64,000 bases of DNA. It comes from Collimonas humicola (lineage in GTDB: Bacteria > Pseudomonadota > Gammaproteobacteria > Burkholderiales > Burkholderiaceae_D). The notes beneath the pieces were generated by a model. The model was given only the letters and a program-made list of their open reading frames with translations. It ran no database searches and was not told where the DNA came from. Location: assembly GCF_018304945.1 (NCBI RefSeq), contig NZ_JAGQEE010000001.1, positions 1,426,001 to 1,490,000 of the forward strand. The letters run 5' to 3'. Positions 27,873-33,966 of this stretch are shown here, in pieces; position 1 is the first letter of the stretch, and each line of letters opens with the position of its first letter. The translations under genes were made by a program, and so were the position numbers.

Positions 27873-27936
27873 GGCTTGTTGATAATTCGTAAGGCGCGAC
27901 AAAACCGTCACCCGCTTTTCGTCGCGCTTAAGCCGC
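27873..27936. other. Short intergenic hairpin region after amino-sugar operon
   Basis: An inverted repeat GCGCGAC/GTCGCGC with a loop of about 20 bases follows the deaminase stop and may serve as transcript end. REP elements begin just after. Confidence 0.4.
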
Positions 27937-28486
27937 GCAGCTAACTGGGGTCGGAGTGAATTTTCTGCGCGCTTTTTGCAGAAAATTCACTCCGACCCCA
28001 CTTAGCGGGCCACGGAGCGCATGCTCCTGCACTGGCAAAAAAAAACGTAACACGCCCGTTCTTTCTCCGAATCCGTCATGTGAGGTCAGAGTCGAGTTTC
28101 GCGAAAAAGCGCCGCGAAAGTCGACTCTGACCCCAGATGACTCGAAAGTCGACTCTGACCCCAGATGACTACATCGCGCCGGATACGCGCAGCTAACTGG
28201 GGTCGGAGTGAATTTTCTGCGCGCTTTTTGCAGAAACTTCACTCCGACCCCACTTAGCGGGCCACGGAGCGCATGCTCCTGCACTGGCAAAAAAACGTAA
28301 CACGCTCGTTCTTTCTCCGAATCCGTCATGTGAGGTCAGAGTCGAGTTTCGCGAAAAAGCGCCGCGAAAGTCGACTCTGACCCCAGATGACTACATCGCG
28401 CCCGATACACGCAGCTAACTGGGGTTGGATTGAATTTTCTGCGCGCTTTTTGCAGAAACTTCACTCTGACCCCAGATGACTACGTC
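27937..28486. repeat. Tandem array of REP hairpins (2.3 units)
   Basis: A composite unit is repeated with starts at 27941, 28193 and 28415 (steps of 252 and 222 bases; the first unit carries a 30-base extra copy of a right arm at about 28141-28170). Each unit has a type-1 hairpin (CTAACTGGGGTCGGAGTG arm with TTTTCTGC/GCAGAAAA core), a spacer starting CGGGCCACGGAGCGCATG, and a type-2 hairpin (GTCAGAGTCGA with TCGACTCTGAC). The third unit is truncated to a hybrid hairpin with a type-1 left arm and a type-2 right arm. No gene is present. Confidence 0.9.
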
Positions 28487-28498
28487 CGGGTTGGCGCA

Positions 28499-29686
28499 TT
28501 AAAACACATGCCGCATCCCCATCCGCAGCAATCCCTGCGCGCTGTTGCTGGACGGCGCAAATGAATTGCCGATGACGCCATTCACGCCGCGCGACGCCCG
28601 CCGGTAATCGGCTGACACATACAGATCGCTGCGCTTGGACAGATGGTAATCCAGCCCCAGCGACAACTGGTTCGCCCTGGTGCCTTCAAAATGCATGCGC
28701 TGGTAGCCCAGCGTGCCGTCCAGCGCCGCGCTGAGATGATAGCGGCCGCCGACCTCGATCAGGCGCAGATCCGATGCCTGGCCATAGCCGCGAAACTCGA
28801 TATCCGCAAAATTCGCCATGGCGGTCAGGTTGCCGATTTCATAGGCGGCGCCGATGGCGAAGATCTTCTGGCTGTCGATCGCCATGTTCTTGAGCGGAAC
28901 GCGTTCGCCGCTGCCGGCATCGATGGCAAAGGTAGGCTGGCCGAGGAAATGCGTCAGGCCCAGGCTTGGATAAGGTCCAATCGCCTGGGTGCCGCGCGGC
29001 GTGTTCAAGCGCATGTAAGCGGCGCCGGCGGAAAATGGGCCGTATGCGTAATGGGCGCCGATATTCCAGGCCGTGCCGCTGCCGGCGCCCTCGCTGTCAT
29101 TCTCGTCCGGATGCAGGCTCTTGTCGGCAAATGAATACAGCGCGCCAAAGGTCAGCCCGTTGAAATCGGCGCTGGCGAACTTGATCGATCGCTGGATGGC
29201 GTTGCCGGCAATGCGGTCGAAATTCCCCTGGTGCGCAGCGTAGCCGCTGGCGCCGGCGCTGATGTTGAAGGGCGTGACATAGTCGTTGATCAGATCGTAC
29301 TGGGTGCCAAAGGTAACTTGTCCGTAGCGGCCGGCCAAACCGACCATCGCCACTCGGTCGAACATCGTGCCAGGCGAAGACAAGGAACCGTCGTCCAGGT
29401 TGAAGCTGCTTTCCAGCTGAAACACCGCGTTCAGGCCGCCGCCAAGGTCTTCAACACCCTTGATGCCCCAGCGATTCGCTTCCATCACGCCGGTATCCAG
29501 CTTGGCGTTGCCATGCCCGTCGTCATTATTGACCAAGGTGACGCCAGCATCGAGCACGCCATAAAACACTACGGAGCTTGGCGCAGCGGTCCTTTTTCCG
29601 ACTGCAGGGATTTCCGTTTGGGCCTGGATTGCAGGAGAAAACGCCAATGCACAGCTGCCGCCGATGATGCTCAATAAAATTTTCAT
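28499..29686 (-). CDS. Gram-negative porin (OmpC/PhoE-like, betaproteobacterial type)
   Basis: A 395-residue outer-membrane protein with signal peptide (MKILLSIIGGSCALAFSPAIQA) and a betaproteobacterial porin pattern: VVFYGVLDAGVTLVNND, ANRWGIKGVEDLGGGLNAVF, FDRVAMVGLAGRYGQVTFG and the C-terminal MGMRHVF ending in Phe. It forms a general diffusion channel. It lies 106 bases downstream of mgtA on the same strand and could be cotranscribed, but the gap leaves room for its own promoter. REP repeats sit at its 3' end. Confidence 0.92.
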   Translation of the reverse strand: MKILLSIIGGSCALAFSPAIQAQTEIPAVGKRTAAPSSVVFYGVLDAGVTLVNNDDGHGNAKLDTGVMEANRWGIKGVEDLGGGLNAVFQLESSFNLDDGSLSSPGTMFDRVAMVGLAGRYGQVTFGTQYDLINDYVTPFNISAGASGYAAHQGNFDRIAGNAIQRSIKFASADFNGLTFGALYSFADKSLHPDENDSEGAGSGTAWNIGAHYAYGPFSAGAAYMRLNTPRGTQAIGPYPSLGLTHFLGQPTFAIDAGSGERVPLKNMAIDSQKIFAIGAAYEIGNLTAMANFADIEFRGYGQASDLRLIEVGGRYHLSAALDGTLGYQRMHFEGTRANQLSLGLDYHLSKRSDLYVSADYRRASRGVNGVIGNSFAPSSNSAQGLLRMGMRHVF

Positions 29687-29792: not shown

Positions 29793-32558
29793 TCAGAACC
29801 ACTGGCCGTAACGGCGGATGTAGATGGTCTTCACGGTTTGCGCCAGGATCATGTAGCCGACCATGGTGGCGACCAGCCAGTAGAAGTACGATTTATCCAG
29901 CGCCACGAAACCGATCGATTCCGCCAGCGGCGAGAACGGCAGGTAGCAGCCGATCGCAATCGCGATGCCGGTCGACAGCAGCACCGGCAGCGCCGCCGTG
30001 CTTTGGATGAACGGGATCTTGCGGGTGCGCAGCATGTGCACCACCAGCGTCTGCGACACCAGGCCTTCAATGAACCAGCCGGAATTCATGATGCTCTGTC
30101 CGGCGCTGCCGCCATCCGCCGCATACATCGCGCCGGCGCCGAACACGGTCCACATCAGGATATAAGTGGTGATATCGAACACCGATGAAGTCGGGCCGAT
30201 CCAGATCATGAAGCGGCGGATATTGCCGGCATCCCATTTGCGCGGCTTCTTGAGGAAGTCTTCATCCATCTTGTCCCAGGGCAGCATCATCTGCGAGATG
30301 TCATAGATCAGGTTCTGGATCAGCAGATGCACCGCCAGCATCGGCTCCCACGGCAGCCAGGCAGAAGCCACCAGCACCGAAAACACATTACCGAAGTTGG
30401 AGCTGGCCGTCATGTTCAGGTACTTGAGGATATTGCCGAAGGTCTCACGGCCTTTGACCACGCCCTCTTCCAGCACCATCAGGCTCTTTTCCAGCAAGAT
30501 GATGTCGGCGGTTTCCTTGGCGATATCGGCGCCGCTGTCGACCGAAATGCCGACATCGGCGTCGCGCAAGGCTGGCGCGTCGTTGATGCCGTCGCCGAGG
30601 AAGCCGACGGTGTGGCCATTGGCCTGCAGCGCCTTGACCACGCGCGATTTCTGCAGCGGCGTCAGCTTGGCGAACACGGTGGTGTATTTCACTGCCTCGT
30701 TGAGCTGCTGCTCGGACATGGCTTCGATTTCCTGGCCGGTCAGCGGCGTGCCAGGATCGAGGCCGACGTCGCGGCAGACCTTGAGCGTGACGATGGCGTT
30801 ATCGCCGGTCAGCACCTTGACTGCCACGCCGTATTCCTGCAGGGCGCGGATGGCCGGCGCCGCTGAATCCTTGGGCGGATCGAAGAAAGTGAGGAAGCCG
30901 CGTACCACCAGCTGCGCTTCATCCTCGGTCTTGTACTGCGTTTTGGCGTGCGCCGGGTCGATTTCGCGTGTGGCGACGATCAATACGCGATAACCTTCTT
31001 CATTGTATTCGCGCGCCTTTTCCAGCAGCGCTGTGCGGGCCTTGGCATCCAATACCTGCACCGCATCGCCCTGCTGGGTATGGCTGCAGACCGCCAGCAT
31101 TTCTTCCACCGCGCCTTTCGACACCATCAGCTGCGCACCGCCCTGGTCCTCGACGATCACCGACAAACGGCGGCGCACGAAATCGAAAGGCATTTCATCG
31201 ATCTTGCTGTATTGCAGCAGCTTGGCGGCCGCACCGCGCTCGTCGGCATGGCTGACGATGGCGATATCCATCAGGTTCTTTTGCCCGCTCTGGTGAAAAC
31301 TGTTCAGCCACGCCAGCTGCAGGATGCTTTCATCCTTGTTGCCGCTGATGTCGAGATGGCGTTCCAGGATGATCTTGTCTTGCGTCAGGGTGCCGGTCTT
31401 GTCGGTGCACAGCACATCCATGGCGCCGAAGTTCTGCACCGAGTTCAAGCGCTTTACCACCACCTTGCGGCGCGCCATCGCCATCGCTCCTTTGGCCAGG
31501 TTGGCCGAAACGATCATCGGCAGCATTTCCGGCGTCAGCCCGACCGCCACCGCCAGCGCGAAGGTCAGGGCCGACATCCAGTCGCCCTTGGTGACGCCGT
31601 TGATCATGAAGACGATAGGCACCATCACCAGCATGAAGCGGATCAGCAGCCAGGAAACGCTGCTGACGCCGCGGTCGAAACTGGTTTCGATGCGCTTGTG
31701 GCTGACCACATTCTTGGCCAGCGAACCGAAATAGGTATTGGCGCCGGTGGCCACCACCACCGCAGTGGCGGTGCCGCTGACGACATTGGTCCCCATGAAG
31801 CAGATATCGGACAGGTCGAGCAAGTCGGCCTGGCTGTCGGCTGCAGGATTGGCGTCGGCGGACTTCTGCGCCACCGCGCCCAGCGTGTCGTATTTCTCCA
31901 CCGGCAGCGCTTCCCCGGTCAGCACGGCCTGGCTGATGAACAGGTCGCGCGAGGCGAACAGGCGGATATCGGCCGGGATCATGTCGCCGGCCTGCAGGCT
32001 GACGATATCGCCCACCACCAGTTCGCGCATCGGAATTTCCTGGCGCTGGGGATTGGCGGCGTCATTGGTCCGGCGCAGCACGGTGGCAGTGGTGCGCACC
32101 ATCGATTTCAACCGTTCGGCTGCCTTGTTAGAACGGTATTCCTGGAAGAAGCGCAGCAGGCTGCTGATGGTCACCATCGTCACCAGGATGATCACCCCTT
32201 TCCAGCTGCGCTCGTCCGGCTCGGCCAGGTGGACATCGAGGATATAGCTGATGGTGGCCAGTATCAGCAGCACGATCACGAAGGGATTCTTGAAAGACAG
32301 GACCAGCTGCACCAGGGCGTGCGGCGCCTTGTCGTGCGCTACCTCATTGGGGCCGGAACGCTGCAGGCGTTCGGCGGCGTCATGGTTGAACAGGCCGAAA
32401 GGCGAGGTTTTGGTGCGGTTGAAGGTCGATTGAATAGGCTTGCCGGACTCTTCGACGACGCGCATCGAGATTTTCTGTTCCGGCGCAGAGGATCCGGAGA
32501 TGAATCCTTTCTGCTTCTGCTTGGGCTTGCCCGCTTTGTTCTTGGCTGTCTGGTTCAT
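29793..32558 (-). CDS. mgtA: Magnesium-translocating P-type ATPase
   Basis: About 921 residues from the ATG at 32558, preceded by AGGAAA (an in-frame ATG at 32606 adds 16 residues and overlaps the stop of a leader ORF). It is a type IIIB P-type ATPase: actuator VLTGEALPVEKYD, phosphorylation motif VLCTDKTGTLTQDKI, nucleotide domain, KVLTGDNAIVTLKVCRDVGL, and hinge GFLGDGINDAPALRDADVGI. Ten membrane segments are expected. It imports Mg2+ at the inner membrane when Mg2+ is scarce. The stretch upstream, with a leader ORF and hairpin, suggests Mg2+-responsive control of the kind known for enterobacterial mgtA. Confidence 0.93.
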   Translation of the reverse strand: MNQTAKNKAGKPKQKQKGFISGSSAPEQKISMRVVEESGKPIQSTFNRTKTSPFGLFNHDAAERLQRSGPNEVAHDKAPHALVQLVLSFKNPFVIVLLILATISYILDVHLAEPDERSWKGVIILVTMVTISSLLRFFQEYRSNKAAERLKSMVRTTATVLRRTNDAANPQRQEIPMRELVVGDIVSLQAGDMIPADIRLFASRDLFISQAVLTGEALPVEKYDTLGAVAQKSADANPAADSQADLLDLSDICFMGTNVVSGTATAVVVATGANTYFGSLAKNVVSHKRIETSFDRGVSSVSWLLIRFMLVMVPIVFMINGVTKGDWMSALTFALAVAVGLTPEMLPMIVSANLAKGAMAMARRKVVVKRLNSVQNFGAMDVLCTDKTGTLTQDKIILERHLDISGNKDESILQLAWLNSFHQSGQKNLMDIAIVSHADERGAAAKLLQYSKIDEMPFDFVRRRLSVIVEDQGGAQLMVSKGAVEEMLAVCSHTQQGDAVQVLDAKARTALLEKAREYNEEGYRVLIVATREIDPAHAKTQYKTEDEAQLVVRGFLTFFDPPKDSAAPAIRALQEYGVAVKVLTGDNAIVTLKVCRDVGLDPGTPLTGQEIEAMSEQQLNEAVKYTTVFAKLTPLQKSRVVKALQANGHTVGFLGDGINDAPALRDADVGISVDSGADIAKETADIILLEKSLMVLEEGVVKGRETFGNILKYLNMTASSNFGNVFSVLVASAWLPWEPMLAVHLLIQNLIYDISQMMLPWDKMDEDFLKKPRKWDAGNIRRFMIWIGPTSSVFDITTYILMWTVFGAGAMYAADGGSAGQSIMNSGWFIEGLVSQTLVVHMLRTRKIPFIQSTAALPVLLSTGIAIAIGCYLPFSPLAESIGFVALDKSYFYWLVATMVGYMILAQTVKTIYIRRYGQWF

Positions 32559-32602
32559 ATGATTTTCCTGTGCCGCATGGACGGCACGGGAAAATCCTGT
32601 CT

Positions 32603-32746
32603 TCATTCAGACAATACTATCCCCTGCCGCGCCACGGCTAAGCGTGTTCGGTTGGTCAAAAATTCGGGACGAAGGTCGCCCGCTGTGGTTATCGTGCTGA
32701 CTATCCAAGCGGGCGGCCTATCGCCACCTTCGCTGTCGTCTTCCAT
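32603..32746 (-). CDS. Putative mgtA leader ORF (acidic/proline N-terminus)
   Basis: A 47-codon ORF with an AAGGAAG ribosome site four to five bases before its ATG at 32746. It begins MEDDSEGGDRPPAW, with four acidic residues in the first six to nine positions and a Pro-Pro pair. Its TGA overlaps the ATG at 32606, an in-frame possible start of mgtA (ATGA). In enterobacteria the mgtA leader peptide MgtL is also acidic and proline-rich at its N-terminus and lets low Mg2+ disturb ribosomes on the leader so that mgtA is expressed. The analogy is inference. It may instead encode a stable small protein. Confidence 0.55.
   Translation of the reverse strand: MEDDSEGGDRPPAWIVSTITTAGDLRPEFLTNRTRLAVARQGIVLSE
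32677..32715 (-). promoter_or_regulatory. Stem-loop within mgtA leader
   Basis: CGCCCGCT and AGCGGGCG form an 8-bp stem around about 23 bases inside the leader ORF, starting near its Pro-Pro codons. A ribosome stalled or dropping off there would affect this fold, as in attenuators. Confidence 0.4.
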
Positions 32747-32807
32747 GTGCTTCCTTGCAATGAAAAGTGGTTGAGTGGGTGCCCCGCAAAGAGACGGGAG
32801 CGGATTT

Positions 32808-32960
32808 TTACTGCGGCATGAAAATGGGCGCCGCGTGCACCTGCGGCTTGCTGTGCGCCGCCAGCGGCGGCAACAGGCTCAGCAGGATGAACAGCCAGGC
32901 CAACGCTGCAAGCAACGCCAGCAGCACCGCATTTCTTGCGCTTAAAAAGTGCTGATGCAT
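32808..32960 (-). CDS. Small single-span membrane protein (50 aa)
   Basis: An ORF of 50 residues with a clear AGGAAG ribosome site seven bases before the ATG. The sequence MHQHFLSARNAVLLALLAAL is followed by AWLFILLSLLPPLAAHSKP, giving one long hydrophobic segment at about residues 9-34 and a short basic/hydrophilic tail. It starts ten bases after the stop of the small gene upstream and lies about 60 bases before the mgtA leader ORF. Small membrane proteins MgtS and MgtR control MgtA stability in enterobacteria; a similar role here is speculative. Confidence 0.65.
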   Translation of the reverse strand: MHQHFLSARNAVLLALLAALAWLFILLSLLPPLAAHSKPQVHAAPIFMPQ

Positions 32961-32969
32961 GCTGCTTCC

Positions 32970-33176
32970 TTAGCGGCCGCTGCCGCCGATCAACGTGCCG
33001 TACATGCCGCAGCTCTGTGCCGGCTGACGGGATTTTTCGGAGCGCGCATTACAGGCATGACGGGCAAGGCTGGCAAGGCTGGCAGCCTGGGAGGAAGTCC
33101 AGCCAAAAGTCCAACCCTTGGCCGATGTTTCCGCGACGCGGATTTTTTGCGCGTTGATGATTGATGCGATAGTCAT
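32970..33176 (-). CDS. Small protein of unknown function (68 aa)
   Basis: A 68-residue ORF from the ATG at 33176, with GAGG seven bases upstream; an in-frame ATG at 33203 is the alternative. The product (MTIASIINAQKIRVAETSAK...) is Ser/Ala-rich with two cysteines and no membrane segment or known domain. Its stop is directly followed by the ribosome site of the 50-residue membrane protein gene, so the pair forms a small operon upstream of mgtA. Not recognised. Confidence 0.5.
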   Translation of the reverse strand: MTIASIINAQKIRVAETSAKGWTFGWTSSQAASLASLARHACNARSEKSRQPAQSCGMYGTLIGGSGR

Positions 33177-33203
33177 GATGAGCCTCGATAGACGTGTTTG
33201 CAT

Positions 33204-33966
33204 AGCGGCTCTGCATATGAGGAGCCGTGATCGAAGGCGAGCTGGGGCGGCGGACTAGGGCCGTTGGCTATGCAACGGGCAAAGACCGGAAATTTGCGCG
33301 CCCCGCTTGCGTATTAAAGATGTTTTACGTAAGGGGCAACTGGGGGGACAGTCCATGTCAACATTCCTTTATAAACGCGCTGGAGCGGCAGCCAGAGCGG
33401 CCGGCAGCTGGTGGGCGGACTGCGGAACGATAGCGCTCATGCAGCGTGGAGCGGCAACGACGTGCCTGGAAAAATAAACCATGCCAATCTCCTGGATCCG
33501 GCATCAGGCAACAGCGAGGACGTGATCAGTCGGCGCGGACACAACCGCAAGGGCGGGCGCGAAAAATCTCGCCGCTGCATGGCAGAAACGGCGGAACAAC
33601 CGGAATATCCGGAACAAATGGATTAAACGACTGGATGGGGATTTAAAGTGCGGTCTTGCTGATCGCATCTACAACTCGGCGTACGCAGAGTCGTAGCGGA
33701 GGGAGGTCTGCTACTGCTATGCGTGCTGTGCCGGGCTGATCGCCCATCCACTTCTACTATTAGAACCAGAGTCCACAGTGGACCTCCATATAATGCAATG
33801 CCCGAAGTTTATCGATGAAAGAATAGCCATGTCAAGCATAAATCCGGCTATTTCAAAAATCGCGCGCTGCCTGAAACATGGCTCCGGCTGTGGCAATCCA
33901 GCCCATCGCACTAAAAATCCGGCAGTCGGATAAACTGTCCGGCTGTATCCCACTTCCGAAATCATC
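33204..33966. other. Intergenic region, about 760 bases
   Basis: Several short open frames exist but none has a convincing ribosome site, composition or known motif. A short palindrome GTCCACAGTGGAC is at 33771-33783. The part from about 33600 is lower in GC. It presumably contains the promoters of the small-gene operon (minus) and of the flavin reductase gene (plus). Confidence 0.5.

Follow-up and report, generated by a model that had tools for sequence, protein, structure and literature searches.

What does a short open reading frame (ORF) that stands directly before the gene for a Mg2+ pump do in Collimonas humicola? This ORF, the leader, lies at 32603-32746 on the minus strand of the window (the whole 64,000-nucleotide stretch of DNA that was analysed, positions 1,426,001 to 1,490,000 of contig NZ_JAGQEE010000001.1; all coordinates below are those of the window), has 47 codons, begins MEDDSEGGDRPPAW... 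and reads MEDDSEGGDRPPAWIVSTITTAGDLRPEFLTNRTRLAVARQGIVLSE in full. Its Shine-Dalgarno (SD) sequence, AAGGAAG, is at 32750-32756 on the same strand. ORF and SD are both present as the original prediction described them; that prediction took the ORF for a translational Mg2+ switch of an mgtA gene, built like the enterobacterial MgtL leader and coupled to the pump through an overlap of stop and start codons. Among the 23 SD-preceded ATG ORFs of 8-60 amino acids in the window, the leader is the sole one whose positions 2-5 include at least two acidic residues, a criterion that was chosen post hoc, when the leader and its relatives had already been seen. A consensus scan of 32450-33250 found no promoter inside the leader region, which is a weak test because 0.3 promoters are expected by chance, and a TAGTAT-like element there differs by eye between Collimonas genomes.

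The pump gene itself (29793-32558, minus strand, ATG at 32558) encodes a Mg2+-translocating P-type ATPase that is probably of the MgtB type, as follows: the protein scores 1640 bits against NF011702 (PRK15122, which we take to be MgtB; cut-off 975) and 1304 bits against TIGR01524, is about 65% identical to copies on Rahnella and Serratia plasmids and 50.7% identical to E. coli MgtA, and its Serratia plasmid relative sits in an mgtC-mgtB pair. A relative on an Enterobacter soli plasmid, 62% identical, stands in the order mgtC - pump - mgtR - mgtU. The NF011702 score, the mgtC neighbours of the relatives and the 50.7% identity to MgtA thus place the pump, measured against the family model, the plasmid relatives and E. 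coli MgtA, probably nearer MgtB than MgtA, and the mgtA label of the original prediction is corrected accordingly; many records label such pump genes mgtA. By eye, no mgtC was recognised among the ORFs at 26-37 kb of the window.

The start codon also had to be moved. The leader's TGA sits within an ATGA at 32603-32606 (minus strand), and the ATG at 32606 is in frame with the pump, but it has no SD by the score used and the ATGA overlap is found in two of seven Collimonas (L001 and L003), the other five having ATAA. The ATG at 32558 is preceded by an SD in all seven (AGGAAA at 32564-32569, minus strand, in the window). From the sequence the pump start is likely to be this ATG, 44 nt past the leader stop and with its own SD; the distance from leader stop to pump start is 43-44 nt in Collimonas and 42-47 nt in Burkholderia (excluding L073 and L099, in which the leader is present but the pump start call failed and which are left out of the Burkholderia alignment as well). 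Stop-start coupling through ATGA, which the original prediction included, is not supported on these grounds.

The leader frame is open in 7/7 Collimonas orthologues, and an equivalent ORF is present in 25/25 Burkholderia. The other two frames run into a stop within 47 codons in all seven Collimonas (both frames) and in 23 and 25 of the 25 Burkholderia. The four alignment gaps within the Burkholderia ORF are of 6, 3, 3 and 3 nt, and the four gaps between its stop and the pump start of 3, 5, 1 and 2 nt. The original prediction had looked to the Oxalobacteraceae for conservation of the frame; the frame is indeed kept, but the reach of the comparison is limited, since close pump orthologues occur in the seven Collimonas and in none of the other genomes among the 392 drawn from the window's family. 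The clade to which the window's genome belongs also contains Collimonas OK307, C. antrihumi and OK607. A class-level search of 369 genomes gave no match at E up to 1e-290 beyond the genome itself. The leader table in all holds 51 loci, 3 of them duplicates.

The peptide, in turn, drifts: the leader has a pN/pS of 0.90 among the Collimonas and 0.87 among the Burkholderia sequences. Codons 1-12 change more slowly at the amino acid level than silently (0.063 vs 0.129 in Collimonas, 0.045 vs 0.091 in Burkholderia), but the ratio is equally low in the +1 control frame (0.053 vs 0.138, Collimonas codons 1-12), so the low pN/pS of these codons is by itself no proof of coding. Frame-breaking indels occur in the second half of the Pandoraea ORF, which is read in three different frames among the species; the leader nevertheless ends at the same TAG in 6/8 and elsewhere in 2/8. 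A frame that is kept while its peptide drifts at a pN/pS of about 0.9 argues for a translated leader and not for a working protein, and the ORF, which is real and conserved, looks like one that must be translated but whose product need not work. The same figures bear on the idea that its product is a small protein with the pump as its target, in the manner of MgtR or MgtU. Its length of 45-57 amino acids in several genera and the annotation of the Phyllobacterium copy as a hypothetical protein would suit such a role; the pN/pS ratios, the different frames of the second half in Pandoraea and a Pfam search that gave nothing even at an E value of up to 1 make it highly improbable, and a functional small protein was rejected because of the pN/pS and Pfam results.

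What is kept in the peptide is the character of its beginning. Collimonas leaders start MEDDSEG or MEGDSEG, that is, with E2 D3 D4 (E2 G3 D4 in three), and carry P11 P12 (with the variants R-P, S-P and T-P); the Burkholderia leader starts MNSDDSSRLPLAG, that of Pandoraea MDDGSSR, of Sphingomonas MDEGPSR, of Aeromonas MTEEPKPRP, of Paludibacterium MLSDEPEPRP and of Phyllobacterium MDDYPSRPAAL. On a Serratia plasmid MDDDPGRKMIPAW is located between mgtC and mgtB, in Aquitalea the acidic ORF MSDDSYGPIPAG extends beyond the pump start, and farther upstream of the pump Paraburkholderia has MPDSDxWPLR and Chromobacterium MPEEPEPR. The early acidic codons, whose conservation the original prediction named as a check, are found in Collimonas, Burkholderia, Pandoraea, Sphingomonas, Phyllobacterium, the Serratia plasmid and others, before the same pump.

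To put a number on this, we counted SD-led ATG ORFs of 8-60 amino acids, at most 1300 nt upstream of the pump, in which two or more of the residues 2-5 are acidic. Over 25 loci of the pump clade such acidic starts are found in 18 of 32 ORFs upstream of the pump, as against 2 of the 42 that lie elsewhere (p 7e-7), a value that is a guide only, because the criterion was fixed after the leaders had been seen, the 25 pump-clade loci were hand-picked from those fetched (about one per group) and related genera are not independent. Both of the "elsewhere" ORFs are the Chromobacterium MPEEPEPR, which is upstream too, just past the 1300-nt limit. In 22 loci of pump paralogues (excluding L134, the paralogue of the genome itself) the counts were 0/5 upstream and 0/34 elsewhere, or 0/39 together. 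By these criteria no acidic-start ORF was found in Rahnella, Shinella, Cronobacter, Achromobacter, Chitinasiproducens or Paracoccus, the last of which has MPDDSRR with a weaker SD; the upstream ORF of Enterobacter soli begins MMDVPRRLK. Several Paraburkholderia/Caballeronia loci (L032-L035, L046, L066 and L088) have an extra ORF, MYFALL/MHFALL..., which separates the acidic ORF from the pump.

How might translation of such a leader be connected to the pump gene? The leader RNA, 226 nt long, has a better fold than its shuffles (z -3.8; 0/200 equally good), and three elements, all read on the minus strand, can be recognised in it. A hairpin, H1, of two helices lies at 32669-32724, inside the ORF and after the acidic and proline codons; the stem-loop at 32677-32715 of the original prediction is present and forms its core. 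An anti-sequestor, AS (32581-32630), pairs the leader end at 32609-32630 with 32581-32602. A sequestor hairpin, SQ (32561-32596), holds the pump SD, shares the strand 32582-32596 with AS, and has a predicted supporting helix between 32607-32613 and 32547-32553 (95.9% of cells paired). As read from the sequence, then, the leader end and the pump SD compete for one strand, AS and SQ are mutually exclusive, and SQ hides the SD.

In the seven Collimonas the two helices of H1 have 98.4% and 100% of cells paired, AS has 93.2% with two pairs changed on both sides, and SQ has 96.9%; overall the values are 96.1% for H1 plus AS and 96.6% for SQ, against 31-55% for slid controls. H1 shows hardly any covariation there because it is almost invariant. 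The covariation score of Collimonas H1 plus AS is reached by 1/500 shuffles and its both-side changes by 58/500; for SQ the figures are 58/500 and 356/500, so the covariation of SQ is within that of the shuffles. Columns 137, 176 and 191 covary (A-U-A in three sequences, A-U-G in L004 and G-C-G in three), but on the sequences at hand this three-way change is one event on the tree, a single subclade split. Burkholderia follows the same plan, with 95.0% and 88.7% of cells paired in the two helices of H1 (25 sequences) and 93.8% and 93.9% in H1 plus AS and in SQ; the covariation scores are reached by 3/500 shuffles each and the both-side changes by 11/500 (H1 plus AS) and 251/500 (SQ).

The duplexes were also compared with shuffles one sequence at a time. 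In 7/7 Collimonas both are stronger than expected (AS, z -2.8 to -5.9 with 0-2/300 shuffles equal; SQ, z -2.2 to -5.6 with 0-7/300 equal). Among 19 distinct Burkholderia sequences 0-248/300 shuffles equalled AS and 0-171/300 SQ, and in Pandoraea, where both AS and SQ are present in 8/8, AS is weak (6-71/300) and SQ moderate (1-20/300). The predicted exclusive structures are thus strong in Collimonas, mixed in Burkholderia and weak in Pandoraea.

An RNA that binds Mg2+ directly, a riboswitch in which the ORF is incidental, might leave similar traces: H1 is almost invariant in Collimonas, and the Collimonas alignment fold is split about 0.6 to 0.4 between two states, SQ and AS respectively (in the Burkholderia alignment AS is predicted with near certainty). 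Against it stand the conservation of the reading frame and its SD, the gaps that keep the frame and the acidic beginning of the peptide, and no Rfam family matches: the window gives no match at the gathering cut-off, no covariance model of the Rfam Mg2+ riboswitches matches the leader, at E up to 1 the one match within 32500-33900 is a chance-level snoRNA, and on 14 relative loci the one match is a tRNA-Sec distant from the leader. A riboswitch is on this evidence improbable.

If the leader is translated, the position of the ribosome should decide between AS and SQ, and we modelled this by moving a ribosome footprint along the leader in 7/7 Collimonas, 9/25 Burkholderia and 5/8 Pandoraea. In 7/7 Collimonas the modelled openness of the pump SD does not exceed 0.17 while the ribosome stands at codons -9 to -3, and in 8 of the 9 Burkholderia modelled a ribosome that has reached the last codons locks the SD. 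With the ribosome just upstream of the last codons the SD is more open in most; in L007, L048 and L069 it is mostly closed at all ribosome positions, and in L068 it is unchanged. When the interval was shuffled in six sequences, the open-to-locked difference was reached in 0, 0, 1, 0, 0 and 3 of 60 shuffles, a control that contrasts codons -18/-15, the most favourable, with -8/-5, both picked after the scan. The five Pandoraea modelled, in which an internal loop of SQ takes in part of the SD and makes the measure blunt, gave no clear effect, and the modelled switch was not seen in Phyllobacterium, Serratia and Enterobacter. The model thus suggests that a ribosome on the last 11 or so codons keeps AS from forming, so that SQ can lock the pump SD, most clearly in Collimonas. 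The open state is less distinct: mean SD openness is 0.48 in Collimonas (n=7) and 0.27 in Burkholderia (n=25) for the ribosome-free RNA and 0.32 and 0.23 with an early ribosome, so that the SD of the free RNA is half open in the one and mostly closed in the other and the ON state is not clear.

A ribosome that terminates behaves differently in the model. At the stop it makes the SD less open than in free RNA in 0/7 Collimonas and 9/25 Burkholderia, which does not support the terminating ribosome as the lock, and ribosomes on the last codons were substituted for it. Mean openness in Collimonas in fact rises from 0.48 to 0.63 (0.41 to 0.80 in L002, 0.22 to 0.53 in L007), as it should if a ribosome, on finishing the leader, unfolded SQ and started anew at the pump, which would make completion the ON signal; the short stop-to-start gap in both genera also agrees with such translational coupling. 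We nonetheless consider coupling unlikely on balance, since ribosomes on the preceding 11 or so codons lock the SD, the ATGA overlap is confined to two of the Collimonas, and a Mg2+ importer would be switched on by completion at high Mg2+, contrary to need.

The reading that we prefer, to which we give a probability of roughly 50%, is an MgtL-like Mg2+-sensing translated leader for an MgtB-type pump that acts on translation initiation, with a Mg2+ dependence and polarity that we infer. At low Mg2+ ribosomes would drop off at the acidic and proline codons by intrinsic ribosome destabilisation, as on E. coli MgtL; AS would then form, the SD would be free and the pump would be made (ON). At high Mg2+ the leader would be read to its end, SQ would form and the pump would be OFF, a state possibly aided by Rho on the RNA past the leader. 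This polarity is taken by analogy from MgtL, for which PMC11282234 and PMC11552253 describe that translation at sufficient Mg2+ represses mgtA, that the early EPDP leads to drop-off under Mg2+ limitation, and that the early acidic and proline codons determine mgtA expression. In an EttA assay on YFP reported in PMC11282234, EE or DE had no effect, ED a weak one, and DPEE was the minimum with a clear effect; the Collimonas leader has E-D-D-S-E, with proline at 11-12 only, which counts as a caution.

The leader could instead sense Mg2+ and pass the signal on through Rho-dependent termination, completed translation exposing the RNA past the stop and AS hiding it after drop-off. Such an output is described for Salmonella mgtA in PMC11552253 and PMC11282234, which disagree on E. 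coli, and by eye the Burkholderia strand after the leader stop is C-rich. The Collimonas strand is not notably so, however, and termination leaves the strong pairing of the shared strand with the pump SD unexplained; we regard it as unlikely. An SD-hiding translational output, conversely, is not described for MgtL in what was available of the same two papers, and Collimonas, with predicted SD sequestration and a pump nearer MgtB, would differ in this from Salmonella MgtL with its output via Rho.

How close, then, is the preferred SD-sequestering leader to known systems? It shares with MgtL an SD-led short ORF on the same strand upstream of a P-type Mg2+ ATPase, conserved early acidic and/or proline residues (EPDP itself is absent in Collimonas) and, computationally, RNA structures at the leader that exclude one another. 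It has 47 codons, whereas E. coli MgtL has 17 in the annotated record, and its stop is 44 nt from the pump start, against 140 nt at mgtL. The parallel drawn by the original prediction therefore holds for the short ORF with its strong SD, the early acidic and proline codons, the exclusive folds and the Mg2+ ATPase downstream, and fails for stop-start coupling and for the identity of the gene as mgtA. The leader of the Salmonella mgtCBR operon carries MgtM and MgtP and controls a pump of the same type; it lies before mgtC, whereas the Collimonas leader directly precedes the pump gene. In translational attenuators of the erm/cat type a stalled ribosome on a leader ORF opens the SD of the next gene. 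In both cases the position of a ribosome on the leader sets whether the next SD is hidden, but the stalled ribosome of erm/cat opens it and the last-codon ribosome of Collimonas is predicted to close it. No report of such leaders in Burkholderia or Collimonas was found in the literature searched, most subscription papers being beyond reach.

A wider proposal, which we put forward tentatively, is that leader-peptide Mg2+ sensing by ribosome destabilisation generally controls the clade of MgtB-type pumps in alpha-, beta- and gammaproteobacteria, beyond the enterobacterial MgtL, with acidic starts such as DDSSR, EDDSEG, PEEPEP and PDSD, sometimes with a pair of leaders before one pump gene, and by way of a bistable SD-hiding hairpin in Burkholderia and Collimonas. 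If this is true, ion sensing through ribosome stability would be a widespread regulatory principle, leaders with varied acidic motifs would form a natural set for finding out what kinds of nascent chain destabilise ribosomes when Mg2+ is low, and the Collimonas locus would be a case where the output of a ribosome-destabilisation signal is translation initiation. The corrections to the label of the pump gene, nearer MgtB, and to its start codon also matter in their own right.

Other small ORFs lie farther upstream on the minus strand. At 33255-33356 an SD-led ORF, MDCPPSCPLRKTSLIRK..., keeps MDCPP in 7/7 Collimonas (with a TTG start in three), although a 1-nt deletion in L002 shifts the frame after codon 5; it is possibly a second, proline-rich leader on the same transcript. 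At 33717-33776 a GTG ORF, VDSGSNSRSGWAISPAQHA, follows GGAGG and begins about 60 nt past a TTGACA at 33835; by eye it resembles MDSDSCSRLHSAMWANQN of Aeromonas and MDSSCSRSQIDTTA of Caballeronia, and it is possibly a first leader near the transcript start. A hydrophobic ORF of 50 amino acids at 32808-32960, MHQHFLSARNAVLLALLAALAWLFILL..., adjoins the leader, is conserved in Collimonas (its ATG is ATT in L006) and has no Pfam match, and the same null result was obtained for a 77-amino-acid ORF at 32970-33203 with a block, KGWTFGWTS/KGWIFGWTA, conserved in Collimonas.

Upstream of the pump in two relative loci (L038:2269-2679 and L072:2233-2604) there is an ORF like the C-terminal domain of MgtC/SapB; PF21770 gives 27.7 bits in Pandoraea (cut-off 27) and 17.1 bits, below the cut-off, in Aquitalea. 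By eye, a small ORF with a WRxxPxxGxLE-like sequence stands upstream of the pump on plasmids of Shinella, Phyllobacterium, Rahnella and Paracoccus (L135, L136, L137 and L139). Elsewhere in the window, at 27928-28560, a repeated stretch beside a porin gene contains ORFs such as FLQKARRKFTPTPVSCA several times by eye, and is perhaps an intergenic repeat array.
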